From IMG/VR virus record IMGVR_UViG_3300032053_013164, positions 1 to 29,160 of that record: 29,160 bases of DNA; one strand, written 5' to 3'. Origin of the DNA: a virus. Below, one piece after another: positions 9,707-26,775 of this stretch. A program made the translations under genes and the position numbers. Each line of letters begins with the position of its first letter. Position 1 is the stretch's first letter. The notes beneath the pieces were generated by a model. The model saw only the letters and a list, made by a program, of their open reading frames with translations, was not told where the DNA came from and made no database searches.

Positions 9707-11137
9707 TCACATCCAATCTCTAAATGTACTTGGATCTAATCTACTAATATAATCTAATGCTGCTTTAAGTTCTTTAGCATGATAAGACCCCACACTATCC
9801 TTCCCCTGAGAATTATAGCGAACAATCATGTCATTTAATTTATCTTCATTTTCTTCTATCCATTGTTTTAATTGAGATAAATTAACTTTGGTTAATCTAG
9901 ATAAAAATTTTCCTAGATTCCCAGGATGTGTTTCCTTGTCTAACATCGCCCACATGCGCTCTATGTTCTTTTTATTGCCATATGTCCCCTGATAACTCTC
10001 AAAAACATGACTGCGGTTATCAGGGTCAGGAGCATCTTCATATACACTTAATATGTCCATCCATCCCATTTGCCCAGCTAAAATAATAAATTGCTCCTTC
10101 GCTAAATAGTATGGATCATATGACACATTAGCATGCTGTATTTTTGCTAGTTTTATAGCAGTCTCTTTGATGAGTGGTTCTAACTCCTTATTGGCATAAC
10201 CACCAATTCTCATCTTTGCAAACTTTTGATTTCTTCTTTTAGGATTGCGAGTTTTGTAAATTTTTCCACGAGTTAGCATAAGTGGATTTTTATGCCTAAA
10301 CATCTCTATTAGTTTTATTGCATTTCTGGTTTTAATAGCTGATTGTGGATGATCAATCACCATTTTTGCGCAGGCATGAGGATCAGAAAAATCTTCTCCC
10401 TCAATTTCTGCGCCTCGTAAATCAAAATGCGTTGCATTTCCACCACCACTTACAAAATCATTCCATACATCAGGAGATAGCATTCGCTGCTCATTTTCTT
10501 CATCATTATCGCTTGGAGGTGCTAATGCCCTTTTTGGCACATCAAATCCAAATTTTGTCTTTAATGTCATAGCATCAGCAAACTGAATCTGATATGGAGT
10601 CATTCTTTTATTGCCACCTCTATTGGAATGAGTATCAGAAGAATTATACCATCCACCTTGAGCACCATTTGGACCAACATTAGTTGGCACTGTTCCTAGT
10701 AATAAATAAGCAACGTCTCTGGGATCTATAATTTGTTTCTTTTTCCAAGCAGAAATAATTTGGTCTGCTCTTTTCTGTTCATTAGATCCAGACATTACAT
10801 CGTAGTCATGTTGCCCAAATATCGCACCACCTGCACCTACTCCAGTTAAAAAAGGATTAGGTGCAATGGGATCTAGAAAAATTCTTTCTTTTTTCTCATC
10901 TAAACCATTTATCACCCAGTATGGCGTCATGTTGAGAGCATAATCTGCTGCTTTATCCCCAACAGATACATCCTCAAAGTTACTTATAGAAGAAGAACCC
11001 GGAGTATCTGACCAATCATAATACCAACCCTCTGAAACATCATGTTTTATATCAGAAAAACGTATTAACCATACATCATGATGTTTTTTAATTAAATTGC
11101 CTAAATTACGAGCTTCTAACCATGATAAAAAATTCAT
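9707..11137 (-). CDS. Hypothetical protein with capsid-targeting-like N-terminus
   Basis: The 476-residue protein is not recognised. It starts MNFLSWLEARNLG, a motif shared with several other products here and similar to the T4 capsid-targeting peptide. No catalytic motif was seen; the middle is Gly/Asn/Asp-rich (for example DVWNDFVSGGGNATHFDLRG) and a basic patch KTRNPKRRNQKFAK lies near residue 305. GGAGGAATT precedes the ATG, which overlaps the previous stop by four bases. It is the last gene of a three-gene leftward unit. Confidence 0.7.
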   Translation of the reverse strand: MNFLSWLEARNLGNLIKKHHDVWLIRFSDIKHDVSEGWYYDWSDTPGSSSISNFEDVSVGDKAADYALNMTPYWVINGLDEKKERIFLDPIAPNPFLTGVGAGGAIFGQHDYDVMSGSNEQKRADQIISAWKKKQIIDPRDVAYLLLGTVPTNVGPNGAQGGWYNSSDTHSNRGGNKRMTPYQIQFADAMTLKTKFGFDVPKRALAPPSDNDEENEQRMLSPDVWNDFVSGGGNATHFDLRGAEIEGEDFSDPHACAKMVIDHPQSAIKTRNAIKLIEMFRHKNPLMLTRGKIYKTRNPKRRNQKFAKMRIGGYANKELEPLIKETAIKLAKIQHANVSYDPYYLAKEQFIILAGQMGWMDILSVYEDAPDPDNRSHVFESYQGTYGNKKNIERMWAMLDKETHPGNLGKFLSRLTKVNLSQLKQWIEENEDKLNDMIVRYNSQGKDSVGSYHAKELKAALDYISRLDPSTFRDWM

Positions 11138-11811
11138 AATTCCTCCAATGCCCGTCTTAAATTTTTAACAAAATCTTGATCATTGTTTGGATTTAAATTA
11201 AAAGATTCATGGATAAATTTAATATTTCTATCTGTCATCTCTTTTCCTTTAAAACGAATTAAAATTAATTCTTTCTCGCCAGTTCTATGGGCAAACACAG
11301 CTTTGGTTGGATAGGAATTAGCACCATAACTATTCCATTGTTCCATTGCCATTCCTGAAAAATCTAAGGTTGGTTCATTGCAAAATACTGTAAATACCCC
11401 ACGGAAAAACATACCATCAAAAGCTAAAATCACCCACCGTTTTAACTCTCCAACTTTTATCGCCTTTTCATAAATTATTTTCTTACAATAATTTAAATTT
11501 CTAAAATCATGCCCAACTTCATTATAAGCAGATCGCAAATCTGTCTGCCATGGTGGAATTTCTCTGCTATAATATATTGGTTGTTCCACCTTTGTGCCAA
11601 AACCATGATGTTGTAAATAATCATATGCAGCATTAATAAGTTTCGCTTTTCGTGAATCATGAATTATATCTGGATGATATTTCAACAATAATTTTCGTGT
11701 TGATAATTTTATCTCTTCTTCTGTTGCTCCTCGTTGTAAGTCTAATGTCCGCAAAGCATCCTCTAAAGAATTGATGAGACCAATTGACTCTAACCATGAT
11801 CTAAAGTTCAA
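11134..11811 (-). CDS. DnaJ (J-domain) protein with capsid-targeting-like N-terminus
   Basis: In this 225-residue protein, residues 15-72 form a J domain (EDALRTLDLQRGATEEEIKLSTRKLLLKYHPD in sense), with the HPD signature at 46-48 that stimulates Hsp70 ATPase. It is preceded by LNFRSWLESIGL, where the first codon is TTG and overlaps the upstream stop (TTGA). The remaining 150 residues (RWVILAFDGMFFRGVFTVF, then HRTGEKELILIRF) are not recognised. No DnaK gene is in the window, so it would act on a host chaperone. Confidence 0.8.
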   Translation of the reverse strand: MNFRSWLESIGLINSLEDALRTLDLQRGATEEEIKLSTRKLLLKYHPDIIHDSRKAKLINAAYDYLQHHGFGTKVEQPIYYSREIPPWQTDLRSAYNEVGHDFRNLNYCKKIIYEKAIKVGELKRWVILAFDGMFFRGVFTVFCNEPTLDFSGMAMEQWNSYGANSYPTKAVFAHRTGEKELILIRFKGKEMTDRNIKFIHESFNLNPNNDQDFVKNLRRALEEL

Positions 11812-12107
11812 CTTTCCGATTCCCCCGACCCTTTGTCTGCATTCGGTGGCACTACATCATCAAAATTATCATCAGCAGCCTTTGCAAGAGGTAAATCCTT
11901 ACCACCACCCTCTAATCTGTTAATCAAAGATTTTAAATCCTCATCATCATTCTCCTCTGCTAATCCCTTCAAGAAATCCATTAAAGAATCTCTATAACGA
12001 TTCCAGACCGTTTTAAACAATTCTTGCACATTCTGGGCCTCTGCTGGATCACCTGCCTCATCCGCCAACCCCTCCCGTATCCTAATATATTTTTCAAAAC
12101 TTCTCAT
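11808..12107 (-). CDS. Small acidic protein, first gene of a three-gene unit
   Basis: The 99-residue, Asp/Glu-rich protein begins MRSFEKYIRIREGLADE, reminiscent of the T4 capsid-targeting peptide (M-K-T-Y-Q-E-F-I-A-E). The rest is predicted helical with a disordered acidic tail (NADKGSGESES). A CAGGAG ribosome binding site lies 12 bases before the ATG. T4 packs small acidic head proteins, and this may be an analogue, but no family is recognised. Confidence 0.65.
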   Translation of the reverse strand: MRSFEKYIRIREGLADEAGDPAEAQNVQELFKTVWNRYRDSLMDFLKGLAEENDDEDLKSLINRLEGGGKDLPLAKAADDNFDDVVPPNADKGSGESES

Positions 12108-12178
12108 ATTTTTATTGACTCCTGTATAACTATAATTATATTTAGTAAATTTTTGTTTAAAAATTCAACATAAGTTAA

Positions 12179-12186
12179 TATATAAG
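12179..12186 (+). promoter_or_regulatory. TATATAAG promoter-like box before the head module
   Basis: TTAATATATAAGG lies 37 bases before the ATG at 12216, followed by a leader with AGGAG nine bases before the ATG. It is in the 108-base region between divergent units and resembles the TATA-type boxes elsewhere, here with a conventional leader. Confidence 0.4.
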
Positions 12187-12215
12187 GTTAAGCATAATCC
12201 TAGGAGTTTAAAAAT

Positions 12216-13934
12216 ATGAAACGAAAGCTGATTAACTTTGATGTGTTTGATAGGATTCAAAAAGATTCCTTGTCAGCGGCAGAAACTGAGCTTAAAGGAG
12301 CACAATCAGTTCTAGCCGATACATTGGATATAGAAAACACAAACCTCCGCTGCTTCGGATCAGAAAACGTTCTTTATGAAACATCGGATGGCACTTTTAT
12401 CCATGCTAACTATTCAATTAAAAATGAAAATATAACATTTGATAATATTGAACAGATAGTCATTGATGAAGATACAGAAAAAATGAAATCAAAAGAAATC
12501 CTGGGAAACCTCCTGGATTCTCTCTTAGACGAAGAAAAGAAAGAACAAGCCAATGTCCTGTTTAATGATTACCTGTCCCTTCCCTCCACAAAACGAGTAT
12601 TTAAAGAAAATTTTGCAAAAAAAAGAAGTAAGGACAAGCATTTTGTAGAAACTAATAATGTTAATGAAATGCTAGAATTTGGTATCCGACAAGGCAGAGG
12701 AGTAGTCAAAGAATGGTCGGCATTAGCAAAGAATGTTCTTGATTATGTTAATTTCAAGACAAATCAGCAAGTTCTAACCGATACTCAAGTAAAACGTGAT
12801 GAAAAAGGAAATGTGGTAGCCGTACAAATCCCAACTATTGAAACTGCTAACCAAAAGAAACTACTGCAATTGCAATATGACCATATGCTTGATACCGATG
12901 TAGAAGTTAAACGTTGGGCCGCTAAATCACTTTCCGAAAATGCTAAATTCTGCAAAGCAGTTAATGAACTTAGACGACATAATGCTCTCTCTGATGCTAA
13001 TGGACTCGAAGAAGCTTTAGAAAATGTAGTTAGCAACTGGCCACAAGTTCTTTATCTCACTCAATCCGAACTCGCTGGTCAAATCAAGGAAGGCTTAGAT
13101 TCCCTCCATGCCGCAAATTATGATGACCAAACCTGTGAATTTATGGCTGAAGGCATTCTAAGAACCGCTCAAGAAATCTACACAGACTCCGTAGAAAAAA
13201 TAGTAAAACTCGCTGGAACAAAACTCTGCGAAGAATGCGATCAATATGTGGCATTCCAAGAAATTGTAAATAAATTCTACCCGGCAGTTGATGAAAATTT
13301 CATGAGAGAAATGACCGTTTATTCAGATCTTTATGAAACTCTAAGAAAAGTATATGAAGCCACAACTGAAAATTATATTAAGGTCACAACCGCAGGACAC
13401 CTTAATGAATTAGCTTCCGTTCTACAAAAAGAAGTAGAACCAGATCTTAAAATCGTTAAAGAAGCAATGAACTGGTTGATACACCTTGTCGAAACAAATA
13501 TCGGCGGTGGGCCATGGACCGTTTCTAATAAACCACACCAAACTGTTTCTGGTGATCATCCAGCTATGACCCAAAAAGCAAAACAAACCTACTCACCAGC
13601 ATCCGATGCTTCCGGTGATTGGGGAGATGTTGCTCCTGTAAGCGATGGTAAAAACTATAAAGGCGGATTAGCAGATGAGATGAGAAATCGTGGTTGGGGC
13701 AACTGGTCTAATAACGATGTCTATCCAGAATTGAAAAACCCATATGTTCCTAAACCATTTGGCGATTACACTGGAACAGAAAAGGGTGTAGATAAAGTAG
13801 CCGATGCTACAGCACAATGGTCGTCTGGAGATACTTGGCCCGCCTTGCAAAACCCCTACGTTCCAAAAGCAGAAACCCCTGAAACTTACAAAATGAACGC
13901 AGGGGCTGAAGAAGACCTTATTGTAGATAAATAA
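12216..13934 (+). CDS. Putative head/virion structural protein
   Basis: This 572-residue protein is unrecognised but lies directly before the head-assembly genes, in the place where T4-like phages carry portal and prohead core genes. It is mostly helical from about 60 to 430. The C-terminal 130 residues contain two copies of a W-x(3-5)-(Y/W)P-x-L-(K/Q)NPYVPK unit (YPELKNPYVPK and WPALQNPYVPK) in a Gly/Asn-rich setting. AGGAG precedes the start. Use of C-ending codons increases along the gene, as in the capsid gene. Structural role is inferred from position. Confidence 0.65.
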   Translation: MKRKLINFDVFDRIQKDSLSAAETELKGAQSVLADTLDIENTNLRCFGSENVLYETSDGTFIHANYSIKNENITFDNIEQIVIDEDTEKMKSKEILGNLLDSLLDEEKKEQANVLFNDYLSLPSTKRVFKENFAKKRSKDKHFVETNNVNEMLEFGIRQGRGVVKEWSALAKNVLDYVNFKTNQQVLTDTQVKRDEKGNVVAVQIPTIETANQKKLLQLQYDHMLDTDVEVKRWAAKSLSENAKFCKAVNELRRHNALSDANGLEEALENVVSNWPQVLYLTQSELAGQIKEGLDSLHAANYDDQTCEFMAEGILRTAQEIYTDSVEKIVKLAGTKLCEECDQYVAFQEIVNKFYPAVDENFMREMTVYSDLYETLRKVYEATTENYIKVTTAGHLNELASVLQKEVEPDLKIVKEAMNWLIHLVETNIGGGPWTVSNKPHQTVSGDHPAMTQKAKQTYSPASDASGDWGDVAPVSDGKNYKGGLADEMRNRGWGNWSNNDVYPELKNPYVPKPFGDYTGTEKGVDKVADATAQWSSGDTWPALQNPYVPKAETPETYKMNAGAEEDLIVDK

Positions 13935-13939
13935 TTTTT

Positions 13940-14614
13940 ATGAATAATTGTGGAATTTATACTATTGAGAATGTTGTAAATGGTAAAAGATACCATGGTT
14001 CTACAAATAACTGGAATCGTAGGAAGCATGCTCATTTACACCAACTCAAAAATGGCACTCATAAAAACAAACATTTGCAAAGAGCATGGGTGAAATATGG
14101 GGAAAATAATTTTAAATTTATTTGGGAAATGGATGTATTAGAACCATATTTGCTTTTTGTTGAGCAAATATATCTTAATAATAATAAAGATGGATATAAC
14201 ATTAATCTAAATGCCTCTAAACCACCTTCACCTAAAGGAAAAAAGATTACCGAGGAGCACAGAAAAAATCTTAGTTTATCGCATAAAGGAAAAAAGATTA
14301 CCGAGGAGCACAGAAAAAATCTTAGTTTATCGCATAAAGGGAAGCCACAAACTAAAGAGTCTAATGTTAAGAGATCTGAATCTCTTAAAGGAAAAAAAAG
14401 ACCGCAAGATGTTGTTGATAAATATATTGAATCTAGAAGAAATGGGAAAGGATGGACTTATAAACATACTGAGGAAACCAAAAATAAACTGAGATCTTAT
14501 AAACCATCTGATGAGACTAAAAGAAAAATAAGTGAATCTATGAAACTTCATAGAAAAAATAAAATAAGCAAGTCATTAAAATTACATTTTGGTTTACTCA
14601 AGGAGTCCCAATGA
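13940..14614 (+). CDS. GIY-YIG homing endonuclease with NUMOD3-type repeats
   Basis: The 224-residue protein has an N-terminal GIY-YIG nuclease: GIYTI (5-9), GKRYHGS (15-21), Arg27/28 and the metal-binding Glu75 in LLFVEQIYL. The C-terminal half is a string of short NUMOD3-like DNA-binding repeats (SPKGKKITEEHRKNLSLSHKGK and variants). It is inserted between two head genes like the T4 seg genes, and its last codons contain the AAGGAG that serves the prohead protease gene. It has no ribosome binding site of its own and starts six bases after the previous stop. AT-rich codons differ from those of its neighbours, consistent with transfer. Confidence 0.92.
   Translation: MNNCGIYTIENVVNGKRYHGSTNNWNRRKHAHLHQLKNGTHKNKHLQRAWVKYGENNFKFIWEMDVLEPYLLFVEQIYLNNNKDGYNINLNASKPPSPKGKKITEEHRKNLSLSHKGKKITEEHRKNLSLSHKGKPQTKESNVKRSESLKGKKRPQDVVDKYIESRRNGKGWTYKHTEETKNKLRSYKPSDETKRKISESMKLHRKNKISKSLKLHFGLLKESQ
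14234..14335 (+). repeat. Perfect 51-bp tandem duplication within the GIY-YIG gene
   Basis: Units 14234-14284 and 14285-14335 are identical and encode the 17-residue repeat KGKKITEEHRKNLSLSH twice. Perfect DNA identity points to a very recent in-frame duplication. Confidence 0.95.
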
Positions 14615-15309
14615 TTTTACTTACAGAACATGGTATCCCCGGAACAAGCTATAAAGATGTGCTAATCTGCGATGGTGGTTATGGAGTCCTTAATGAAATG
14701 GATCTCCATGAATCCACCGATCAAGGTGTAAAATTAGTAAAATTTAAAGGCAAGTTCCAAGAAGCTGATATTGTTAACAAAAACAAAAGAATGTACCCAC
14801 ATGTTGTCCTTGACTCTAATGTTAAACGATTACAAGAAGTTATCGATGTAGGAGGTCTCATAGGGGAATGCGACCATCCTATTGATAGCATAATTCATTT
14901 TGCTAACGCTTCACATAAAGTCAATAAATTATGGTGGGAAGGAAATACCCTAATGGGCGAAGGCGTTATCCTCGATACGCCTATGGGAAAATTACTTAAG
15001 TCGCTCATTAATTGTAATGTACGAATTGGAATAAGTAGCAGAGGCGTAGGAAATGGAAAAGTGAATGAAGATGGAATACTAGTGATTGGGGAAAGTTATC
15101 GACTCATTACGTTCGATGCAGTCGCTGACCCAAGCACTTCGGCTGCGTTTCAAGAAAAAATAGTAGGAAAAGAGGAATCAATTTATGATAATCCTCCAAA
15201 AAACGAAAGTTGCAGCATAAATAGAATAAGCAATGAACTAATTCTTGCTTGCTTAAGTGGAACGATTAAAGAACAAATAAATAACTATAAAGAGAGGATA
15301 AGCTCATGA
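14611..15309 (+). CDS. 21: Prohead maturation protease (T4 gp21-like)
   Basis: The 232-residue protein matches T4-type prohead proteases: FQEADIVNKNKRMYP at 49-63, GGLIGECDHP with the catalytic-type His (H89), and VRIGISSRGVG with the Ser (S142/S143), followed by LITFDAVADPS. In T4 this enzyme cleaves scaffold, capsid and targeted internal proteins after (I/L)-x-Glu during head maturation. The start overlaps the homing endonuclease stop (ATGA) with AAGGAG upstream, and the end overlaps the scaffold start. The C-terminal 50 residues are likely the self-removed tail. Confidence 0.93.
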   Translation: MILLTEHGIPGTSYKDVLICDGGYGVLNEMDLHESTDQGVKLVKFKGKFQEADIVNKNKRMYPHVVLDSNVKRLQEVIDVGGLIGECDHPIDSIIHFANASHKVNKLWWEGNTLMGEGVILDTPMGKLLKSLINCNVRIGISSRGVGNGKVNEDGILVIGESYRLITFDAVADPSTSAAFQEKIVGKEESIYDNPPKNESCSINRISNELILACLSGTIKEQINNYKERISS

Positions 15310-16199
15310 AAGTTCTGGAAGCCCTTACTAAATTATTGCCTGAAAAACAGGCACAAGAAATCATGCCAACCGTTGAGGCTATGCTTGATGAGGCAAAGCA
15401 AGAGCTTGATAAAGAATATAACAAAAATCTAGAAGAAGCTTATGCTGAACTAGCCAATGAAATGAAAACGGCGGAAACAACCGCTGAGCAAGGCTACCAA
15501 GAAGCTTATTCTATTATTCAAGATCTTCGCAGCCGACTCGATACCCAACAGTCTGAATTTGCATCGTCCATGGATGAAGGCTATGAAGAAGCATACCAAA
15601 TGCTTATAGCCGAACGTGCTAAAAATGAAAAACTCGAAGTCGAAATTTATGAAGAATACGACAAGAAGCTCGCTGAAATGAGAGAATATATGATCGATAA
15701 GATCGATGAATTTCTCAACGTAAAAGGAAAAGATATTTATGAACAGGCCCGACGTGAGTTGCTTAATGACCCCACAGTAGCTGAACATAAAGTCGCTATG
15801 GATAAAGTCGTAAATATACTCTCCGACTATATCAGCCAAGAAGATTATACACTTGCTGCAAGTAGCAAACTAGAAGAAGCTATTAAAACCCTTGAGGAAC
15901 TTCGAAATAAACAACGTATCCTTGAAGCGAGAAATATTAGATTATCATCCGAAAATAAAAAGCTCAATGAGAACGTTCGTAATCTCAATGAAGCAGTACA
16001 GAATAAAAATGGTAAAACCATTACCGAAGAAAGAAAAGAAAGAGTAGAAACATCTAAGAATGCAACGGGGAGAGGACAAAAAATTGTCGAGGATGTCAAA
16101 GTTATTGCGGAACATAACGAAGAACTCGATGACAAACAACCAGCCTCCGATGAACTCCGACAAATGAGAGTCCTCGCAGGTATTGAAACAAGGAAATAA
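15306..16199 (+). CDS. 22: Prohead core scaffolding protein (T4 gp22-like)
   Basis: The 297-residue, highly charged, nearly all-helical protein with coiled-coil stretches (about 25-140 and 190-235; rich in Glu, Lys, Ala and Gln) lies between the prohead protease and the major capsid gene, the gp21-gp22-gp23 order of T4. Sequence similarity among such scaffolds is low, so the call rests on position and composition. Its start overlaps the protease stop (ATGA). It should form the inner core of the prohead and be degraded by the protease. Confidence 0.88.
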   Translation: MKVLEALTKLLPEKQAQEIMPTVEAMLDEAKQELDKEYNKNLEEAYAELANEMKTAETTAEQGYQEAYSIIQDLRSRLDTQQSEFASSMDEGYEEAYQMLIAERAKNEKLEVEIYEEYDKKLAEMREYMIDKIDEFLNVKGKDIYEQARRELLNDPTVAEHKVAMDKVVNILSDYISQEDYTLAASSKLEEAIKTLEELRNKQRILEARNIRLSSENKKLNENVRNLNEAVQNKNGKTITEERKERVETSKNATGRGQKIVEDVKVIAEHNEELDDKQPASDELRQMRVLAGIETRK

Positions 16200-16219: not shown

Positions 16220-17665
16220 ATGAATGATAGATTTCTAAATGAAGCTGCTCAACTTGAAAACCTTTGGGGCGAGCTTGGAATGCTACAAGGGATCAAAGAT
16301 CCATATGTCCGATCCTGCACAGCCGTTCTACTCGAAAACCAAAGACTCATTAATGAAGTATCCACCGATACTTCAGATATCGCCCAATTCAAGCGTATTT
16401 CAATTCCATTGGTACGCAGAATTTATCCGCAGTTGATCGCCAATAAAGTAGTGTCCGTACAACCACTACTTGGCCCAACTGGTCTAGTATACTACCTGCG
16501 ATTCCGATACTCCACCAATAAAGGTGCCGTTCGTGGTGCAGATAATAACGCTGGATTTCCGGCAGATGATGTTAACTCTCTACAACAGTTGGCAAGCGGT
16601 GACGCTAACCTATACGTCTACTACAGCCACCAGTTCATAGAGAATGAAACAAGTTCAACCGATACAGGTGCAGACGTTACCTCAGTGTTCGCCCCACTGG
16701 AACATACCCCAGTAATCGGCGGAACCCTAACAGGTACAGTATATGATGGTGCCGTTGCTATCCAAACATTAACTTCAACTTCTGGCAGTACCGCACTTAC
16801 CTTCGCTGCAATTGGTGTACTAGCAGCCGTCCACGTTGATAGCGGTACTATTAACGTCACAACCGGTGAAATTACACTCACCTGGGATGCAGGCGGTGGG
16901 GCTCCCGGACCAAACCATATTATCACCTCCTATGAATATAATATGGAATGCAACCAAGACCTGCCCGAAATTAACCTGGTTATCGAGTCGGAAGAAATTG
17001 CCGCAAAAACCAGAAAGTTAAAGGCAGTTTGGTCATACGAAGCTCAACAAGACCTTCGCAGCCAACATAACTTGGACGCCGAGGCTGAGTTGACCGCAGT
17101 TCTAGCTCAGGAAATTAACCTCGAAATCGACCGTGAAATTCTGAACGACCTGCGCACCAATGCTGGCACAGTAACCGCTTGGGACTTCGCTACTGCACTC
17201 GGTGATACCATTAAGGAAAAGTATGAAGCCCTCTACGTAAAAGTAGTTGAAGTTTCAAACGTAGTTCACCGAAAGACTCTGCGTGGTGGATGCAACTGGA
17301 TTGTAACTTCACCTGAAGTTTCAAGCATATTTGAAACAGCTACAGCCGGTTTTGCTCCAGCACCTTCAGAGACCTTTACTTCCTCATTGGGCATCCAATA
17401 TGTAGGAACAGTAAATGCTCGTTGGCGGTTATATAAGGATCCATTGTTCCCAACCAACCAAATGTTGATGGGATACAAGGGTGATTCGTATATGGACAGC
17501 GGATATTTCTACTGCCCCTATGTTCCACTGACGCAAACTCCTGTTGTATTGGATCCTGAAAGTTTCTGCCCAAGAAAAGGTATATTAACCCGCTACGGGA
17601 AGAAGTTGCTTCGTGAAGGTGCTAAATTTTACGCTCGCATGTCGATCGCAAATTTCGTTATATAA
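16220..17665 (+). CDS. 23: Major capsid protein (T4 gp23-like)
   Basis: The 481-residue protein clearly belongs to the T4 gp23 family: ISIPLVRRIYPQLIANKVVSVQPLLGPTGLVYYLRFRYS (about 60-98), KLKAVWSYEAQQDLRSQHNLDAEAELTAVLAQEINLEIDREIL in the middle, and a conserved C-terminal region with a KGDSYMDSGYFYCPYVPL motif. A likely maturation cleavage site is LINE-V at residue 46/47, which fits the (I/L)-x-E rule of the gp21 protease. Residues about 145-235 form a Gly/Thr-rich beta-type insertion absent at that place in T4 gp23 and may be surface exposed. The gene uses C-ending codons more than its neighbours and is followed by two strong terminators. Confidence 0.97.
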   Translation: MNDRFLNEAAQLENLWGELGMLQGIKDPYVRSCTAVLLENQRLINEVSTDTSDIAQFKRISIPLVRRIYPQLIANKVVSVQPLLGPTGLVYYLRFRYSTNKGAVRGADNNAGFPADDVNSLQQLASGDANLYVYYSHQFIENETSSTDTGADVTSVFAPLEHTPVIGGTLTGTVYDGAVAIQTLTSTSGSTALTFAAIGVLAAVHVDSGTINVTTGEITLTWDAGGGAPGPNHIITSYEYNMECNQDLPEINLVIESEEIAAKTRKLKAVWSYEAQQDLRSQHNLDAEAELTAVLAQEINLEIDREILNDLRTNAGTVTAWDFATALGDTIKEKYEALYVKVVEVSNVVHRKTLRGGCNWIVTSPEVSSIFETATAGFAPAPSETFTSSLGIQYVGTVNARWRLYKDPLFPTNQMLMGYKGDSYMDSGYFYCPYVPLTQTPVVLDPESFCPRKGILTRYGKKLLREGAKFYARMSIANFVI

Positions 17666-17795: not shown

Positions 17796-17834
17796 TTTCA
17801 CATGGAGCAAATACCTGCTCCATGTGAAATTTTT
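17796..17834 (+). terminator. Second intrinsic terminator
   Basis: Stem TTTCACATGGAGC (17796-17808) with GCTCCATGTGAAA (17817-17829), an 8-base loop, then TTTTT. The 13-bp perfect stem backs up the first terminator and isolates the endonuclease gene from capsid transcription. Confidence 0.88.
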
Positions 17835-17847
17835 ATATTGACAGGGA

Positions 17848-17855
17848 TATATAAT
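17848..17855 (+). promoter_or_regulatory. TATATAAT promoter-like box for the endonuclease gene
   Basis: ACAGGGATATATAATATTG lies about 38 bases before the ATG at 17886. It is almost the same as ACGGGGATATATAGTATTG at 28137-28155, before the tandem small genes. Its place just after a double terminator supports a promoter. Confidence 0.5.
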
Positions 17856-17885
17856 ATTGTTAGAATACAACAAAGGAAATTTTAT

Positions 17886-19325
17886 ATGATATTAGACAAA
17901 GATACTTTTGAAAGAACTGGAGAAATATTTGAAACTGCCAGAAAGAGAACTAAAATAGTATGTCAATGTGATTATTGTGGAGGTGTATTTGACAGAGCAA
18001 AACATAATATTGAGCGATCAAGAAAGCATAGTAAAATAGATGCCTGTACTAATTGCACTCAGAAGAAACGAATTGATACTAATAATATAATATTTGGTAC
18101 AGATAATGCATTTCAAAACAAAGATATAAAAGAGAAAATAAAACAAAAAAATATGGAAATATATGGAGTGCCGAATCCTTTCCAGAATAAACAAGTTCAG
18201 GAAAAACAGAAAGCAACATGTCGTAAAAAATATAATGTTGATAATCCTTTTCAAAATGAAGAAATAAAAAAGAAAATTTACAAAACACTTCAAGAAAAGT
18301 ATGGTGTTTCTAATAACTTCCAACGTCCTGAAATCAGAGATAAGCAGCAAGATACACTTGTGCGGAGGTATGGTGTTAAGCATGCTTTACAGAATGCTAT
18401 ATTTCGCCAAAAGGCAATGGATACGTGCATTGCTAATTTTGGAATATTTCCAGCAAATAATTATGGAAAAACACAAGAAGATATAAAAAATTGGTTGAAT
18501 TCTTTTGGTTTTAATTTTAAATCTAATCGCTCATTAATTCCTGGTAAGGAAATTGATTTATATGATGCCAATAAAAACATAGCCATAGAATATAGTGGAT
18601 TACACTGGCATCATGAAAATTCACCAGAACCCAGAGATAAAAATTATCATCATTTTAAATTTCAAGAATGTTTGAAACAGAATATTCAATTATTAACTAT
18701 TTTTTCTGATGAGTGGGAAATAAGAGAAAAACAATGTAAATCTCATATTAAATCATTACTTGGAATAAATGATGTAAAAATATTTGGAAGACAATGTAAA
18801 GTTGAGCAAATTATTAAAGAACAAGGAAGATTATTTTTTAATGAATATCATATTCAAGGCACCAATAAGCTGGGAATTGTGTTTTTTGGATTATTTTATA
18901 AAGATGAGCTAATGGGCGTGATGTCTTTAGGCAGACACAATCGTCAGTGTAAAAATATTGTTTTAGATCGTTTGTGTTTCAAAGACGGTGTGCAGGTTTT
19001 AGGAGGTGCTAGTAAATTATTTTCACGTTGTGTTGATTGGGCAATAAAAAATGGATTTACAAAAATTATTAGTTTTAGCGATAATCGTTGGAGTATAGGC
19101 AAGGTATATAAAGCCATGAATTTTAAGGTTGATAAGGAATATGGTCCCGATTACAGTTACGTTGATATCAAGTCTCCGAGGAAAAGAATTAGTAAGCAAA
19201 GTCAAAAGAAAAGTAGTAATGGTTGCCCCGAAGGCATGACAGAACTTCAATGGACCTTGCAAAATGGGTTGTCTAGGATTTGGGATTGTGGTAAAATTAG
19301 ATGGGTTTACGATATAATAACTTAG
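17886..19325 (+). CDS. Putative homing endonuclease: repeat DNA-binding region plus PD-(D/E)XK/Vsr-like nuclease
   Basis: The protein has 479 residues from the ATG preceded by AAAGGAAATTTTAT; a longer frame from 17802 would begin inside a terminator hairpin. An N-terminal zinc-ribbon-like CxxC...CxxC part (CDYCGG, CTNCTQ) is followed by four or five copies of a (Y/F)GV-x-(N/H)-(P/A)-(F/L)QN-x-(E/D)I repeat. The nuclease core has GKEIDLYDANKNIAIEYSGLHWH, with the acidic EID...IEY pattern, and LTIFSDEWE. The C-terminal domain (GRQCKVEQII, LGRHNRQ, VLGGASKLF, SFSDNRWSIGKVY) is the one often fused to phage endonucleases of this kind. It sits directly behind the capsid gene, a usual homing position. 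Confidence 0.8.
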   Translation: MILDKDTFERTGEIFETARKRTKIVCQCDYCGGVFDRAKHNIERSRKHSKIDACTNCTQKKRIDTNNIIFGTDNAFQNKDIKEKIKQKNMEIYGVPNPFQNKQVQEKQKATCRKKYNVDNPFQNEEIKKKIYKTLQEKYGVSNNFQRPEIRDKQQDTLVRRYGVKHALQNAIFRQKAMDTCIANFGIFPANNYGKTQEDIKNWLNSFGFNFKSNRSLIPGKEIDLYDANKNIAIEYSGLHWHHENSPEPRDKNYHHFKFQECLKQNIQLLTIFSDEWEIREKQCKSHIKSLLGINDVKIFGRQCKVEQIIKEQGRLFFNEYHIQGTNKLGIVFFGLFYKDELMGVMSLGRHNRQCKNIVLDRLCFKDGVQVLGGASKLFSRCVDWAIKNGFTKIISFSDNRWSIGKVYKAMNFKVDKEYGPDYSYVDIKSPRKRISKQSQKKSSNGCPEGMTELQWTLQNGLSRIWDCGKIRWVYDIIT

Positions 19326-19335: not shown

Positions 19336-19494
19336 ATGACTAAAGAAACTGAAATAAGAATGAACAATGGGGGTGCTGGACCGCATGAGTGTGATAATCA
19401 AGCAACATCTGGTAAAAACATTCCTGACCCACAATATGTCCCTGATCCAAAAAATATTCCTGAAATAAAAGCAAATGAACAAAATAAAAAATAG
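19336..19494 (+). CDS. Small hypothetical protein, 52 residues
   Basis: A perfect AGGAGG (19324-19329) sits six bases before the ATG. The product is hydrophilic, with MTKETEIRMNNGGAGPHECD at the start and a Pro-rich repeat-like part (NIPDPQYVPDPKNIPEIK). It overlaps the start of the next gene by 20 bases. No family is recognised; the strong ribosome binding site is the main support. Confidence 0.6.
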   Translation: MTKETEIRMNNGGAGPHECDNQATSGKNIPDPQYVPDPKNIPEIKANEQNKK

Positions 19495-20890
19495 TTTACA
19501 ATCCAAATTCCCAGAAATTGCTGCTCAATGGCATCCAACAAAAAATGGTGATTTGACATCAGATAAAGTAAGTTATGGAAGTCATAAAAAAGTTTGGTGG
19601 TGGGATACAAATGGACATGAATGGCAAGCATCAATCCATGGTAGAACAGCCAAAAACAAAAGTGGTTGTCCATATTGTTCTCACCAAAAAGTACATTATG
19701 ATAACTGTTTATCTACTCTACATCCAGAACTTGCAAAACAATGGCATCCAACCAAAAATGGGGATTTAACACCAAAAGATGTAGTTGGCGGCAAGAAAAA
19801 ACATTGGTGGGTGGATAAAAAAGGACATGAATGGCAGGCAACAATAGATGATCGCATAAACGGAGGAACAGGTTGTCCATTTTGTGTCAATCATATAGTT
19901 TGTAATGATAATTCTCTACAGACATTATATCCTGAAATAGCGAAGCAATGGCATCCAACAAGAAACGGAGACTTAACGCCAGATAAAGTAGTTTTTGGAA
20001 GTCATAAGAAGGTATGGTGGTTATGTGGAAAGGAGCATGCATATCTGGCAACAATTAGCAAGCGCACACATGGCAAACGTGGCTGCCCTTTTTGTGCTAA
20101 TAAAAAAGTTTGTGATGATAATTGTTTACAAACCAAATTTTCTGAAGTGGCAAAAGAGTGGCATCCAACAAAAAACGGTAGATTAACTCCAAAAGATGTA
20201 TTGCCAGGAAGCCATAAAAAAGTATGGTGGCTATGTAAAAAAGGACATGCATATTGGGCGGCAATTAGCGAGCGAACACATGACAAAGGTTGTTCATATT
20301 GTGCTGGTAAAAAAGCATGCTCTGATAATTGTTTGGCTAACTTATTCCCTGAAATAGCAAAAGAATGGCATTCAACACTAAATGGAAATTTAACCACAGA
20401 TAAAGTATTACCTGGAAGTGATAAAAAACGTTGGTGGCAGTGTTGTAAAAAAGGACATATATATCAGACGACTCCAAATAATCGCACTAACCCTAATACT
20501 CGATCTGGTTGTCCCATTTGTTCCGAATCCAAAGGCGAGAAAAAATTAGAAGAGATATTCACAAAACTAAACATTACCTACATAAGACAATACAGACATC
20601 CAGAAATAAAAAATATAAAACCATTGCCATTTGATTTTTATTTACCTGATTTTAATTGTCTTGTAGAATTTCATGGACATCAACATTATAAACCAATAAA
20701 TTGGTCTGGACATATGACCAAAGAGCAAATGGAAGATAATTTAATTGATGTGAAACAAAGAGATAAAATAAAGAGGCATCGTGCCAGAGAATTGAAAATT
20801 CCATATCTTGCTATAAATTACAAGCAAATAGATGAGATGGAAGGTATTATTAAATTTTTCATGAATAATAACAGCAAAGGAACATGGTGA
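19475..20890 (+). CDS. Zinc-ribbon repeat protein with Vsr-like endonuclease domain
   Basis: The 471-residue protein has five tandem units of about 65-70 residues, each with (F/L)-(P/S)-E-(I/L/V)-A-x-(Q/E)-W-H-(P/S)-T-x-N-G-x-L-T, a K-x-W-W strand, GHxx, and a CP(Y/F)C-type zinc knuckle, matching the probable zinc-ribbon family PF14311. The C-terminal 120 residues (GEKKLEEIFTKLNITYIRQYRHPEI, FDFYLPDFNCLVEFHGHQHY, KIKRHRARELKIPYLAINY) form a Vsr/PD-(D/E)XK-like nuclease with the D...E-x-H pattern. It probably acts as a DNA-binding homing-type nuclease. The start lies within the preceding small gene, and the stop overlaps the next ATG by seven bases. Confidence 0.82.
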   Translation: MNKIKNSLQSKFPEIAAQWHPTKNGDLTSDKVSYGSHKKVWWWDTNGHEWQASIHGRTAKNKSGCPYCSHQKVHYDNCLSTLHPELAKQWHPTKNGDLTPKDVVGGKKKHWWVDKKGHEWQATIDDRINGGTGCPFCVNHIVCNDNSLQTLYPEIAKQWHPTRNGDLTPDKVVFGSHKKVWWLCGKEHAYLATISKRTHGKRGCPFCANKKVCDDNCLQTKFSEVAKEWHPTKNGRLTPKDVLPGSHKKVWWLCKKGHAYWAAISERTHDKGCSYCAGKKACSDNCLANLFPEIAKEWHSTLNGNLTTDKVLPGSDKKRWWQCCKKGHIYQTTPNNRTNPNTRSGCPICSESKGEKKLEEIFTKLNITYIRQYRHPEIKNIKPLPFDFYLPDFNCLVEFHGHQHYKPINWSGHMTKEQMEDNLIDVKQRDKIKRHRARELKIPYLAINYKQIDEMEGIIKFFMNNNSKGTW

Positions 20891-22335
20891 TTACTTCTTT
20901 TATTCAATCTGCCATTAATGTACACGGGGATAAATATAATTATTCCAAGGTTGAGTATAAGAATGCACATACTAATGTCATTATAATTTGTTCTATTCAT
21001 GGAGAATTTTTACAACGTCCGGATGCTCACATTCATCAGAAGCAAGGTTGTCCAATTTGTGGTTTAGAGAATAGAAAGCATCCTTGGCAGAAAACAACAG
21101 ACCAATTTATTACACAAGCCAAGAAGAAATGGAATTATGATTACAGTAATACTTTTTATATAAACAAAACAACTAAAATAAAGTATGTTTGTTCCAAGCA
21201 TGGAATTATAGAGCAATATCCCATTTTACATCTTCGATCTGGTTGTCCTTATTGCAATGGGAGGGGCATTAGTCGCCATTCTTTGGTATCATTTATTGAG
21301 ATTGCCAACAAGATTCATGAAAACAAATATGATTATTCAAAGACTAAATTTTTGAGGATGAACGATGATGTAATTATTATTTGCCCTATTCACAGTGATT
21401 TTGAGCAACGTGCTGGTAATCATATTCATTTAGAGAATGGTTGTCCGCAATGTGCGAGGCAATTAAGGACTTCCAAGGGCGAGAAGGAAATTCTTAATTT
21501 TTTTAAAGAACATTATGATAAAGAAATTTTGGAGAATAACAGGGAGATACTTAAGAGTGGCAGAGAAATTGATATATTTATACCTGATTTAAAGCTAGGG
21601 ATTGAATATCATGGCTTATACTGGCATGTAGAGACTGTAAGGGGGCGAAAATTTCATTACGAGAAGTATAAGGAAGCAAAGGACATTGGTATTTATTTGC
21701 TTCAAATTTATAGCAATGAATGGGAAGATAAGAGGGCTATTTTAGAATCTAAATTTTTGAATCTTATTGGAAAATCAAAGAGAATAGGGGCTAGGGAGAC
21801 TAAGATTGTTGAAATTGACAAACATAGCAAGGATGAGTTTTTAACAAAGAACCACTTACAAGGTTCAGATGCATCTAAATATTGGTATGGATTAATTTAT
21901 AATGGGGAGTTAGTTTCTTGTATGACATTTGGGGAGAGCAGGTTCAATTGTAGGTTCGATTATGAGTTAATGAGGTTTTGTAATTTATCCGGGTTAGTTG
22001 TGGTTGGTGGGGCGGGGAAATTGTTATCAGTTTTTAGAAAGGATCATTCTGGTAGTATTGTAAGTTATGCTGATAAAAGGTATTCGAACGGTAATTTATA
22101 TAGAAGATTGGGATTCACTTTAGATGGTGAATCGAATCCTAGTTTCACATATGTAAAAATTAGCAATGGGCAGATTTACAATAGAATGAAGTTCCAGAAG
22201 CAATATTTGAAGGACATGCCTTATTATTCAGATGATTTAACTGAGTATGAGATAATGCAATTAAACGGGTATGATAGAATTTGGGATGCTGGTCAATTTA
22301 GGTTTGCAATTAATGATAGTTCTGTTGGCTTATGA
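20884..22335 (+). CDS. Putative homing endonuclease: zinc-knuckle repeats plus Vsr/PD-(D/E)XK-like domain
   Basis: The 483-residue protein has three N-terminal repeats of the phage type (H-G/E-x-K-Y-x-Y-(S)-K/N ... I-I-C-x-x-H-(G/S) ... GCPxC), at about 14-60, 75-125 and 140-190. A nuclease region follows: KGEKEILNFFKEHY, SGREIDIFIPDLKLGIEYHGLYWH (EID...IEYHG) and LLQIYSNEWEDK. The C-terminal domain (GARETKIVEI, LQGSDASKYWYGLIY, LMRFCNLSGLVVVGGAGKLL, SYADKRYSNGNLYRRLGF) is shared with the protein at 17886, so the two are fused relatives with different DNA-binding fronts. Confidence 0.83.
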   Translation: MVITSFIQSAINVHGDKYNYSKVEYKNAHTNVIIICSIHGEFLQRPDAHIHQKQGCPICGLENRKHPWQKTTDQFITQAKKKWNYDYSNTFYINKTTKIKYVCSKHGIIEQYPILHLRSGCPYCNGRGISRHSLVSFIEIANKIHENKYDYSKTKFLRMNDDVIIICPIHSDFEQRAGNHIHLENGCPQCARQLRTSKGEKEILNFFKEHYDKEILENNREILKSGREIDIFIPDLKLGIEYHGLYWHVETVRGRKFHYEKYKEAKDIGIYLLQIYSNEWEDKRAILESKFLNLIGKSKRIGARETKIVEIDKHSKDEFLTKNHLQGSDASKYWYGLIYNGELVSCMTFGESRFNCRFDYELMRFCNLSGLVVVGGAGKLLSVFRKDHSGSIVSYADKRYSNGNLYRRLGFTLDGESNPSFTYVKISNGQIYNRMKFQKQYLKDMPYYSDDLTEYEIMQLNGYDRIWDAGQFRFAINDSSVGL

Positions 22336-23073: not shown

Positions 23074-23087
23074 AGAGGTATTTAGTC

Positions 23088-23495: not shown

Positions 23496-23650
23496 GTGAC
23501 GTACCGCAGGGCAAGCCCGTGCGGCTTCTCTAGTTCATTGACTTCAACTTGCTTACTTTGATACCATTGATTGCCACCAATGTTTCAAAGAAAGTAGAGG
23601 TCAAAATCTCCCTAGTCTTAAAATTCCTATCGTCCATAGGTATTTGTTTC
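23496..23650 (-). ncRNA. Predicted omega/right-end RNA guide of TnpB
   Basis: TnpB proteins use an RNA made from the 3' end of tnpB through the right end of the element, with the guide taken from the flanking DNA. Here the hairpin at 23504-23524 begins six bases after the tnpB stop, and the guide would begin at 23495 reading AAATATAGAAAATTTTGTAA. The 5' limit is a guess. This is family knowledge applied to position, not direct evidence of an RNA. Confidence 0.4.
23504..23524 (-). repeat. Right-end hairpin of the IS element
   Basis: CCGCA-C-GGGCTTGCCC-TGCGG folds as an imperfect hairpin, then TACGTCAC marks the end. Repeat of GGGCTTGCC(C)TGCGG links it to the left end. Confidence 0.75.
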
Positions 23651-24765
23651 GTGGCTTCTTCCTCAATGCAAATTGCTGATTTCCAGTCTCTATCTTTCAC
23701 AAAACCGCAATCGCATGAGTAAGTCCTGTGACTTAAACTTAATTTCTGCTTATTACCACAATTAGGACAAAGTTGCGTGCTTGGAAAAAACTTACCAACC
23801 ATTATCGGCGTATGAGATTTGTGCTTCAAATCTCCAATAATCCCACCAATACCAGAAAATTGTATCTTTTTTCCATGAGTCCCAGCGTGCCAAGCATGAA
23901 TATTCTCGTCTTGAAAGCAAACATACTTATAATTTTTAACAATAGCAGAAACTAATTTGTGTCTAATATCTTTTTTCTTATTTGTAAGATGCCCGTATTC
24001 AACTTTTCTTTTTCTTTTGTCTTGTTCTTTCTTTTTAGAGGCAACTCTGTTGCCTCTCATTATTCTACGATCAAGTCTTTTAATTCTTTTGCTTGTCGGA
24101 ACTTGAAACTCTACTTTGATTCCGTTGCTAAAACTCAATTGTGTTTCACAACCAAAATCTATTCCAATACTCATATTTGGAACAACACTTGTTTCTTTAT
24201 CCACATAAGTCGTAATGTGTAAGAAGTAATCCTTGCCTTTTCTTACAAGTGTTGAGTTGGCAATATCAGCATTATCAGGAATTTGTTCAAGTCCATTAAC
24301 TCTCAACCACTTTTTCTTCATGCCTGCTAATTTAATTCTTTTACCATCAAAGTCAAGACGATAAGTTCTTTTGTATTCTCTCAATGGGACTGAATTGATT
24401 TCACTTTTGAATTTCAATCGTCCTACTTTATATCCTTGTTTCTTTCTTGATGATAGTGACTTTAGTGAGGTGAATAATCGTTCTTTTATTGCTTGCCGAT
24501 GTTGAGTTTGTAAGACATTGAATTTTCTATCCTCGTATTCGTCTTTAACTTTGACTGGCACACTTTTTAGTGTGCAATTTGCATCATTAAGATTTTCATT
24601 AGACAAGCAGTAATTGTAGAACCATTTTGCTTCTTTGAACAAACTTGATAAATGTTTATGAGCAAAATTTGATAAATGAGAACGATCTATCTTACACTCA
24701 TAAACTTTACAAGTTTGTGATTGTCGTTTAGCCCTTGTGAGGTTTCTACTTGTTAATCTATCCAC
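23530..24765 (-). CDS. tnpB: TnpB RNA-guided endonuclease (OrfB family)
   Basis: The 411-residue protein has a RuvC-like fold: SIGIDFG with D203, a zinc ribbon CPNCG...CDCG (C333, C336, C351, C353) and FVKDRDWKSA with D358/D360. The middle acidic motif reads CFQDENIHAW (about 283-292) rather than the usual (V/I)EDLN, so the catalytic Glu may be E287. The WFYNYCLSN segment near residue 48 is typical of the N-terminal part. The start is a GTG inside a perfect CACACTAT/ATAGTGTG palindrome (24763-24781). TnpB cuts DNA next to a short motif, guided by the element's right-end RNA, and promotes retention of the element. Confidence 0.93.
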   Translation of the reverse strand: MDRLTSRNLTRAKRQSQTCKVYECKIDRSHLSNFAHKHLSSLFKEAKWFYNYCLSNENLNDANCTLKSVPVKVKDEYEDRKFNVLQTQHRQAIKERLFTSLKSLSSRKKQGYKVGRLKFKSEINSVPLREYKRTYRLDFDGKRIKLAGMKKKWLRVNGLEQIPDNADIANSTLVRKGKDYFLHITTYVDKETSVVPNMSIGIDFGCETQLSFSNGIKVEFQVPTSKRIKRLDRRIMRGNRVASKKKEQDKRKRKVEYGHLTNKKKDIRHKLVSAIVKNYKYVCFQDENIHAWHAGTHGKKIQFSGIGGIIGDLKHKSHTPIMVGKFFPSTQLCPNCGNKQKLSLSHRTYSCDCGFVKDRDWKSAICIEEEATKQIPMDDRNFKTREILTSTFFETLVAINGIKVSKLKSMN

Positions 24766-24900: not shown

Positions 24901-24903
24901 ATT

Positions 24904-25007: not shown

Positions 25008-25027
25008 TGGGCGGTTATTCCTCTTAT

Positions 25028-25618
25028 TTAATCAAACCATTTAATATATTTTAAGTGCCATTCTGTTCCATTAAAATCTTCTGGAATGAATTGTGGAAAA
25101 GGATTGGTAACGGTTTCAATTATAATTCGCCAATCTGTATATTCTGAGACGCTTCTATATGTTTTTAGTGAAAAGTGATCTTCATTTGAATTATAAGGTT
25201 GTTTTTCCCCTGTTTTAACATTTAGCCAATACATAGGAAATCTACCACTAATAGACAGTGAACGAATGAATCCTTGTCCTGCTCTGGATTGTTCTCTACC
25301 AAACATAATAGATTTTTGTAATGAGTTTTTAAGGAAGAAAACTAATTTTTTCATTAGATTTTGTCCTCGAAACTCTGGGTTGGTATATATAATATTTAAT
25401 TCATCGAATATTTGGTTATTGATTTCCTTTGTGTTTAATTGAAGATAAGCGACTGGATTATTATTTACAGTTATTGCATAATAATTATTTTTCTTTATTA
25501 TTTTATGTTGTTCTATATCTCCTATATGGGTTGCATCTGAGAAATTAGGGAATGGCAGATCTGGCATTTCGCCATAACTCAATGTCATTTCTACGAATTC
25601 TTTGAATGATACACACAT
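25028..25618 (-). CDS. GNAT-like acetyltransferase with capsid-targeting-like N-terminus
   Basis: The 196-residue protein begins MCVSFKEFVEM, close in pattern to the T4 capsid-targeting peptide. The core AYLQLNTKEINNQIFDELNIIYTNPEFRGQNLMKKLVFFLKN matches GNAT strands 4-5 and the acetyl-CoA loop (FRGQNLMKKL in place of R/QxxGxG/A). The last third is not recognised. It has no ribosome binding site; a TACTATATA box ends five bases before the ATG. Substrate unknown. Confidence 0.65.
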   Translation of the reverse strand: MCVSFKEFVEMTLSYGEMPDLPFPNFSDATHIGDIEQHKIIKKNNYYAITVNNNPVAYLQLNTKEINNQIFDELNIIYTNPEFRGQNLMKKLVFFLKNSLQKSIMFGREQSRAGQGFIRSLSISGRFPMYWLNVKTGEKQPYNSNEDHFSLKTYRSVSEYTDWRIIIETVTNPFPQFIPEDFNGTEWHLKYIKWFD

Positions 25619-25623
25619 AAAAA

Positions 25624-25632
25624 TATATAGTA
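25624..25632 (-). promoter_or_regulatory. TACTATATA box directly before an ATG (possible leaderless promoter)
   Basis: The minus strand reads TTACTATATATTTTTATG; TATATA begins 11 bases before the ATG at 25618 and no ribosome binding site is present. Confidence 0.45.
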
Positions 25633-25636
25633 ATGA

Positions 25637-26545
25637 TTATATTTGAACTTTTTCTTCTGCTTTTAATAATTCTTTTAATTCTTGAATTAGGTTCCAAACT
25701 CTTTGTTGGAATTTTCTGAATAAAGTGGGTTTAGTTCGCCATGCTTTTAGAGTAAGTGGTCGCAAAAACATAATATTATCATCGTTATTTTTAAGCCAAT
25801 TAGTTAGGCGATCAATTATTTTTTGTTTTTCTTTTGAGGTTTGAAAATTTGATTTTACATTATGGTAAAAATGTGAACCTATGGCATCGAATTCCGATAA
25901 TTCCTTAACATACGTTGTGAATTCAGAATCTGAAAATGCAAGAGTTGGTTTTTTAGTTAATTCTTTATATTTATCGGTAGGACCTTTCCATGTTTTGCTC
26001 AATAATTTTTTATCTATTACATGTGAAATTTCGTGTTGAATTTGATTGCTAATTTCTGTGATATTTAAATTTCCTTTGCCATCGGTATCTCCATATGGGA
26101 TATTTATGCTATTTTTATCTTCGTCATAATAGGCATTTTCAAACTTCCCAATATAAACTTGTATTTTTTTGCTAATGACTGTAATAACTCCCAATCTGAA
26201 TTTTGATATAAAATTTTTAAATTCCGAAACTTTTTTGAAATTTATGTTATCCATTAGTTGGCGAAATGATGCAATTGTTTTTTCTGGTATTGTGGCAAAT
26301 CTACTTTCTAGCCAAGTTTTTATATAATATGGGGTGATGACACAACTTGCAGCACAACTCTCCAGTGAATTATATTTAGGATCTAGTTCTAATTCATCAG
26401 TTGATTCTTGTTCTGCTGATAAACAATTTTCATAAAAATTTTCTGCTTTGTATTGCCATCCACATTTACATGTTGGCTTATCTCTAAATCGCTCCGAGAC
26501 AACAAAGGTGTGAGAGCATTTTGGGCATTTAATGGTTAGTTTCAT
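25637..26545 (-). CDS. Zinc-ribbon plus HExxH metallopeptidase-like protein
   Basis: The 302-residue protein has an N-terminal zinc ribbon (C7, C10, C26, C28; CPKC...CKCG), a linker with a second Cys pair (C64, C68), then IKTWLESRF at about 75-83, which matches the start of the paralogue at 22408-23073. HEISH is at 171-175 and the possible third zinc ligand is Glu218 in LSEFDAIG. The C-terminus (LFRKFQQRVWNLI) again matches the paralogue. The zinc ribbon therefore looks like a later addition in front of a capsid-targeting-like motif. No ribosome binding site; TACTCTATATAA lies close to the ATG. Confidence 0.72.
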   Translation of the reverse strand: MKLTIKCPKCSHTFVVSERFRDKPTCKCGWQYKAENFYENCLSAEQESTDELELDPKYNSLESCAASCVITPYYIKTWLESRFATIPEKTIASFRQLMDNINFKKVSEFKNFISKFRLGVITVISKKIQVYIGKFENAYYDEDKNSINIPYGDTDGKGNLNITEISNQIQHEISHVIDKKLLSKTWKGPTDKYKELTKKPTLAFSDSEFTTYVKELSEFDAIGSHFYHNVKSNFQTSKEKQKIIDRLTNWLKNNDDNIMFLRPLTLKAWRTKPTLFRKFQQRVWNLIQELKELLKAEEKVQI

Positions 26546-26549
26546 TAAA

Positions 26550-26561
26550 TTATATAGAGTA
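26550..26561 (-). promoter_or_regulatory. TACTCTATATAA box directly before an ATG (possible leaderless promoter)
   Basis: The minus strand reads TTTTTACTCTATATAATTTAATG, with TATATA 11 bases before the ATG at 26545. The same TTACTCTATATAA precedes the zinc-ribbon relic near 27475. Confidence 0.5.
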
Positions 26562-26567
26562 AAAACT

Positions 26568-26576
26568 TATATATAA
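26568..26576 (+). promoter_or_regulatory. TATATATAA box directly before an ATG (possible leaderless promoter)
   Basis: AACTTATATATAACTCCATGG puts TATATA 13 bases before the ATG at 26581, without a ribosome binding site. It is back to back with the minus-strand box at 26550, both within 35 bases. Confidence 0.45.
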
Positions 26577-26580
26577 CTCC

Positions 26581-26775
26581 ATGGCTTTTCGTCATTGGTT
26601 AGAAAGTAATGATTACAGGGGTCTTCATGAGGCTCCTTTATATGATCTTTCTGTAACCTATCCTGAAGATATTTATGGTCCGAATGGAGCAAGATATTAT
26701 GGACATTTTGGTGGAGACGATGCTATGGATCGTGGTTCTATAGCAACACTTCTTGATTTAGGTGACTTTGGGTGA
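26581..26775 (+). CDS. Small protein with capsid-targeting-like N-terminus, possibly truncated
   Basis: The 64-residue product begins MAFRHWLESNDYRGLHEAPLYD and continues SVTYPEDIYGPNGARYYGHFGGDDAMDRG. The N-terminus matches the FxxWLE motif of other products here. Its last 79 bases overlap the 3' end of the methyltransferase gene on the opposite strand, so it may be the front part of a longer gene cut when the methyltransferase arrived. Function unknown. Confidence 0.55.
   Translation: MAFRHWLESNDYRGLHEAPLYDLSVTYPEDIYGPNGARYYGHFGGDDAMDRGSIATLLDLGDFG

Follow-up and report, generated by a model that had tools for sequence, protein, structure and literature searches.

A T4-like N-terminal tag on dozens of otherwise unrelated proteins in a group of uncultured T4-type phages

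The capsid targeting sequence of the T4 internal proteins was reportedly described by Mullaney and Black in 1996, and in (L/I)-x-E sites T4 gp21 cleaves behind the Glu. In the T4 record, IPI starts with MKTFKEF and IPII and IPIII start with MKTYQEFIAE; in IPI such a site first occurs at residue 19 (ITE↓A). The loading of anti-restriction proteins into heads by N-terminal signals is already known from T4, where the capsid targeting sequence is carried by IPI, IPII and IPIII (PMC3012670, PMC12373910), and from P1, where the N-terminus of DarB suffices to package a reporter in the head and an N-terminal stretch directs anti-restriction cargo (PMC9024508). The long propeptides of SPN3US are likewise known: in this phage and in phiKZ, the N-terminal propeptides of head ejection proteins are thought to act in targeting and are cut after Glu by a protease related to the T4-type prohead protease, which also cuts after Glu (PMC5694885). 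A literature search for the tag consensus, the number of tagged genes or the cargo range described below found no report.

The window analyzed here comprises 29,160 nt (29.2 kb) of the IMG/VR record IMGVR_UViG_3300032053_013164 (Table 1). Judged by its genes, it is a member of a T4-type phage group with an S77 (gp21-type) protease and a gp23-type capsid protein. The closest record of the annotated collection comes from an uncultured huge phage of 595 kb (LR756511; capsid protein 74% and protease 61% identical); all remaining records were less than 60% identical to the window and a cultured near relative was not found. The sole GTDB match was a 77-kb contig (L240, RXKI01000042.1) with a capsid identity of 72%, which encodes tagged genes and on which a tagged ORF similar to members of the conserved head-cluster family was also located. 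Its binning as Neisseriaceae is a weak host hint, as the link is possible and misbinning is possible as well. Homologue searches in viral contigs with proteins A and D returned no match and relatives were therefore traced through the protease. Six long records were read whole, namely LR756511 and IMG/VR contigs of 131-320 kb. The group consists of uncultured, mostly very large phages in which dozens of proteins per genome, otherwise unrelated to one another, carry the tag; neither a cultured member nor a virion proteome of any member was found.

The gp21-like protease named in the original prediction is encoded in the window. Its His and Ser positions match those of T4 gp21, which we take to be the catalytic residues, and by this alignment the enzyme is intact in its catalytic positions. 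No family match was found for the scaffold-position protein, and the capsid proteins of the group keep N-terminal (L/I/M)NE sites in the alignment. A GIY-YIG homing-endonuclease-like gene (13940-14614) lies among the head genes. Downstream of the capsid gene are three large ORFs (17802-19325, 19475-20890 and 20884-22335), one with DUF7487 and a Mom-family stretch, another with repeated DUF4379 treble-clef zinc fingers and another with DUF723. A TnpB/OrfB_IS605-like gene (23530-24765, minus strand) is flanked by tagged genes. The operon-like block at 58-9704 encodes dehydrogenase E1/transketolase-like halves, a radical SAM B12-binding protein and a glycosyltransferase of family 9, and by this content resembles a set of sugar or surface-modification genes.

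Table 1. Features of the window discussed in the text (arrows, predicted cleavage sites)
Feature	Coordinates	Strand	Remarks
Tagged protein A, 476 aa	9707..11137	-	Tag MNFLSWLEA at 11111-11137; without known domain
Tagged protein B, 225 aa, TTG start	11134..11811	-	J domain (residues 22-67) behind the tag
Tagged short acidic protein C	11808..12107	-	MRSFEKYIRIRE↓G; first gene of the C-B-A operon
Late-type box CTAAATA	12139..12145	-	Precedes the C-B-A operon; 32-38 nt ahead of ATG, GGAG between
Conserved 572-aa head-cluster protein	12216..13934	+	77 matching ORFs in the set of related loci, including the window
gp21-type prohead protease (Peptidase S77)	14611..15309	+	Pfam PF03420 E=1.7e-25; T4 gp21 alignment
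gp22-position scaffold-like protein	15306..16199	+	By gene order; conserved in relatives; 79 phmmer matches
gp23-type major capsid protein	16220..17665	+	Pfam PF07068 E=2.8e-84; alignment
Tagged protein D, 221 aa	22408..23073	-	Tag MEFRIWLER, then HExxH...EFDAxG metallopeptidase
Late-type box CTAAATA	23079..23085	-	5 nt before ATG of D
Tagged protein E, 196 aa	25028..25618	-	Tag MCVSFKEFVE, then GNAT domain
Late-type box CTATATA	25624..25630	-	5 nt before ATG of E
Protein F, paralogue of D with zinc-ribbon-like N-terminus	25637..26545	-	WLES internal, residues 78-81
Late-type box CTATATA	26551..26557	-	5 nt before ATG of F
Late-type box TTATATATA	26567..26575	+	Before ATG of G
Small tagged ORF G, 64 aa	26581..26775	+	MAFRHWLES...LHE↓A; PSSM 9.7

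The motif had been predicted at seven places and exists at all of them. The strict FxxWLE form stands at the N-terminus of the ORFs starting at 11137, 11811 (NFRSWLES after the TTG start), 23073 and 26581, and a looser form at 12107 (MRSFEKYIRIREG) and 25618 (MCVSFKEFVEM); the window tags include MNFLSWLEA, MRSFEKYIRIREG and MAFRHWLESNDYRGLHEA. The seventh place, already noted as lying inside the protein starting at 26545, does not fit the pattern: no alternative ATG, GTG or TTG start was found near its WLES, which is for this reason not N-terminal, and protein F carries no N-terminal tag. As predicted, the tag is shared by proteins that are unrelated to one another and continue behind it with a J domain, a HExxH peptidase or a GNAT domain. 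The tag of protein A scored 17.5 in the PSSM (16.3 with the window left out of training), and a single-sequence AlphaFold model of this protein was unusable (pLDDT 34). The J domain of protein B was matched by Pfam DnaJ (E=2.1e-8), and a relative with both tag and J domain is found on L113. Protein D and its divergent paralogue F have HExxH and EFDA.G in common; protein D gave a weak SprT-like match (E=0.028) and a weak model (pLDDT 59) with a marginal selecase/minigluzincin fold match (E=0.3). The GNAT domain of protein E was matched by Pfam Acetyltransf_1 (E=0.0075) and a PHROG acetyltransferase (6e-4), and a tagged relative is present in G001. ORF G, for which a homologue was searched and not found, overlaps the 3' end of an opposite-strand methyltransferase ORF and has a late-type box ahead of its ATG.

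The tag system proved to be group-wide, with tens of genes per genome, and is larger than originally predicted. In a genome-wide search of N-termini, the check named in the original prediction, the tag was found on 154 of 2,320 gene starts in the six long records vs seven of 1,741 in six control phages (P-SSM3, T5, phage G, KVP40, RM378 and T4, scored with the full profile), with primase-like matches taken out of the group set only (odds ratio 18, p = 9e-30). Strict N-terminal F..W[LIVM] occurred three times in the window vs 0.00 expected, and the observed and expected numbers in the long records were 17 and 0.76 (LR756511), 5 and 0.26, 12 and 0.24 (G002), 5 and 0.17, 4 and 0.11, and 6 and 0.18. 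With a window-free profile, four window genes scored at least 8 vs none expected. Leave-one-genome-out profiles gave 49, 16, 34, 18, 13 and 24 such genes in the six records, where internal methionines led to an expectation of 4.1, 0, 0, 0.5, 0 and 0; the number of tagged genes per long record is thus 13-49, with gene starts as assigned by a mechanical ORF caller. Among 80 related-protease loci and the window, 42 of the 67 matches to F..[WFY][LIV].?E fell at ORF residues 3-9, and this positional enrichment places the tag at the extreme N-terminus, within about 10-20 residues, the protein starting at 26545 being the exception. At the DNA level, 55 matches vs three for the backward pattern were obtained in 15 records (54 vs three without P-SSM3), compared with 12 vs seven in eight control phages. 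An IMG/VR scan for the late-type box plus MKTFxxW, which used DNA only and was blind to the protease, yielded 12 contigs; with one contig added from an earlier tag-only scan, whose very strict DNA pattern yielded just three, S77 was present in all four records above 250 kb and in one 27-kb fragment.

The pattern is short and hydrophobic, and some tag calls are false because the loose forms also match ordinary proteins such as primases (WAESRF) and, in one case, a baseplate wedge protein; primase-type N-termini (FxxFLxWAESRF) were discarded as false matches. The likeness could on these grounds be laid to chance or to the common descent of a few N-termini. Set against the comparison with the control phages (p about 1e-29), and against the 164 sequence clusters into which the 227 tagged proteins fall once the first 16 residues are trimmed, this explanation has a practically negligible probability and was rejected for the group overall. 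One of the seven control-phage matches is T4 gene 61.1 (AF158101, 18966-19130), which starts with MKTFKEFIKE, scores like a tagged gene and, by its N-terminus, may encode an unrecognised internal protein. T4 57B (Acb1) starts with MMEFKDF.

The consensus of the tag is M-K-(T/N/S)-F-(K/R)-(E/Q)-W-L-E-N-(E/K/R)-E, or in a shorter form M-K-(T/N/S)-F-K-E-W-L-E, and the information stops eight residues past F. The spacing of F, W and L (i, i+3, i+4) would place them on a single hydrophobic helix face. In multi-member clusters the linker drifts while the tag is kept. Codon choice in the tag tracks that of the genome, each of the two F codons and the six L codons being in use, and therefore selection acts on the peptide. 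The tag is also maintained across 28% to 48% G+C.

Tagged genes are probably expressed late, judged by their enrichment in late-type boxes, which resemble T4 late promoters. The strict box, defined as [CT]TA(A/T)ATA or ATAAATA ending 3-8 nt before ATG, was present at 39 of 119 motif genes vs 68 of 2,023 others (14-fold, p=2e-24), and the relaxed box at 82 of 158 tagged genes vs 84 of 1,511 others. Ten box genes without tag were inspected; family matches were to baseplate, tail or head proteins in four cases and to a DnaB-type helicase in one. Genes for baseplate wedge, tail lysin and head proteins are among the untagged box genes. A Shine-Dalgarno sequence was found at only one of 37 tagged genes with box vs 35 of 76 without, and the base preceding ATG shifts to a pyrimidine at box genes. 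The common spacing from box to ATG equals that from T4 late promoters to +1, and together with the pyrimidine before ATG this means that the mRNAs of box genes may be leaderless. In records L086-L161, the box ends 3-8 nt before the ATG of tagged genes that have no Shine-Dalgarno sequence; capsid-protein genes have a Shine-Dalgarno sequence and mostly no box. As the late box directly precedes the ATG in about half of the tagged genes, the N-terminal likeness could in principle be a nucleic-acid signal, either an extended promoter or a translation-start enhancer. Many tagged genes, however, have a Shine-Dalgarno sequence and no box, and the range of base composition over which the tag is kept also speaks against such a signal; with codon usage at the tag equal to genome usage, it was rejected, and we regard its likelihood as very remote.

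The original prediction had further placed a protease cut after WLE. A site of the form [LIVM]-x-E was found within the tag of 70 of the 164 cluster representatives vs 47 in within-segment shuffles (maximum 66 in 200 shuffles) and 10 in internal 8-mers. When followed by A, G, S, N, T or V, the counts were 34 vs 14 in shuffles, and control motifs with D, K or Q did not rise. More than half of the tags have no strict site in the segment examined, and several predicted cuts fall later than WLE (IRE↓G at 12107, LHE↓A at 26581). The site is thus enriched without being universal; cutting within the group is likely, though not necessarily directly after WLE.

Behind the tag, and in the cases inspected the cargo domain does start behind it, Pfam matches revealed DnaJ (two proteins), GNAT (three proteins, some weak), AAA_33 kinase, RNA ligase, PolyA_pol/tRNA nucleotidyltransferase, 2'-5' RNA ligase/Acb1, ArdC-N, NADAR, AdoMet decarboxylase, peptidase C39, NUDIX, UvrD and SNF2/ResIII helicases, RF-1 and GP88. 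Several more tagged proteins look ADP-ribosyltransferase-like by eye, without family support. Neighbouring tRNA nucleotidyltransferase-like and HAD phosphatase-like proteins, both tagged or tag-like, occur in G006 (64634-68553), G007 (73327-75386) and W01 (580680-583582) and may represent an injected RNA-repair set. A series of tagged genes in G007 (83588-98278, L123), many with their own late-type box and few with Pfam matches, looks like a hypervariable cargo island (83.6-98.3 kb); this genome contains 12 adjacent tagged pairs vs 2.9 expected genome-wide. Relatives of protein C (phmmer matches L042 and L036) form a 19-member tagged family near gp21/gp22/gp23, in whose alignment the tag and a (L/I/V/M)(K/R)E site are conserved, and this family is a positional analogue of the T4 core proteins gp67 and gp68. 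As gp21 degrades T4 core proteins (PMC5694885), such a tagged family would also fit a role of the tag in docking assembly helpers on the prohead core, which would be degraded or expelled at maturation and never reach a host. We consider this unlikely, since most tagged proteins are lineage-specific (139 of the 164 clusters are singletons) and enzyme or anti-defence domains fit delivery better.

A short amphipathic helix could equally serve as an address elsewhere, be it the host membrane, an adaptor, a degradation signal or a phage compartment, and some very large phages do build nucleus-like compartments (PMC13282480). This is highly unlikely given the matching starts of T4 IPI, IPII and IPIII, the protease motif enriched inside the tag, the presence of the tag on a head-cluster protein and the late-type promoters. 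FxxWLE very probably serves a set of injected effectors as an N-terminal, T4-class capsid-targeting propeptide; counting against a propeptide are the internal WLE of paralogue F and its position within a longer protein in one lineage. We infer that an amphipathic peptide of about 10 residues, with F, W and L as its hydrophobic face, would dock late-made proteins on the prohead core or scaffold, that after closure of the shell the gp21-type protease would cut past a nearby (L/I/V/M)-x-E, and that the freed proteins would remain beside the packaged DNA and accompany it into the next host. The tag would then be a general loading address for a large and variable cargo with putative roles in anti-restriction, anti-CBASS-like functions, RNA repair, as chaperone, peptidase, acetyltransferase and others. 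On balance it appears probable that, in a widespread uncultured T4-type group with many huge members, one short N-terminal address loads tens of proteins per head, that the injected set can be read from sequence alone and counts among its members RNA-repair, anti-CBASS-like, anti-restriction and ribosome-release-like proteins, which would act ahead of phage gene expression, and that many of the genes are singly driven by late promoters giving leaderless mRNAs. If so, the tag provides a sequence-only handle on the virion-packaged effectors of uncultivable phages. It would tell when and where dozens of functionally uncharacterised proteins act (injected at time zero) and might be a source of new addresses for delivering proteins with phage heads. 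Its presence on dozens of proteins predicts that each particle brings a large, swappable enzyme and anti-defence set into the bacterium with the DNA.

Compared with the described systems, the P1 Dar proteins resemble the group in that an N-terminal stretch routes cargo into the head, but their N-termini have no common consensus and P1 belongs to another phage family (PMC9024508). The SPN3US and phiKZ propeptides differ from the tag in being mostly longer than 100 residues and in their cleavage motif A-x-E (PMC5694885); the DNA pattern of the tag was not enriched in phiKZ. T4 Alt, gp67 and gp68 lack the tag consensus, so the tag is not the sole route into a T4-type head. The likeness to the T4 capsid-targeting sequence that had been predicted is evident when K-T-F-K-E-W-L-E is set beside the starts of the internal proteins: in both, an N-terminal stretch of about 10 residues with M-K-T-(F/Y)-x-E-(F/W)-hydrophobic stands on otherwise unrelated proteins, a gp21-type (L/I)-x-E site comes after the tag, though in the group not universally, and an S77 protease is co-encoded. 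The group differs from the T4 internal proteins in its W-L-E consensus (F-I-A-E in T4), in its number of tagged genes per long record, compared with three internal proteins in T4, in the many recognisable enzymes among its cargo, and in the late-type box that directly precedes the ATG of many tagged genes without a Shine-Dalgarno sequence. If the tag acts as proposed, the T4 internal-protein idea, so far limited to three small nuclease inhibitors, would extend to a large arsenal of enzymes.
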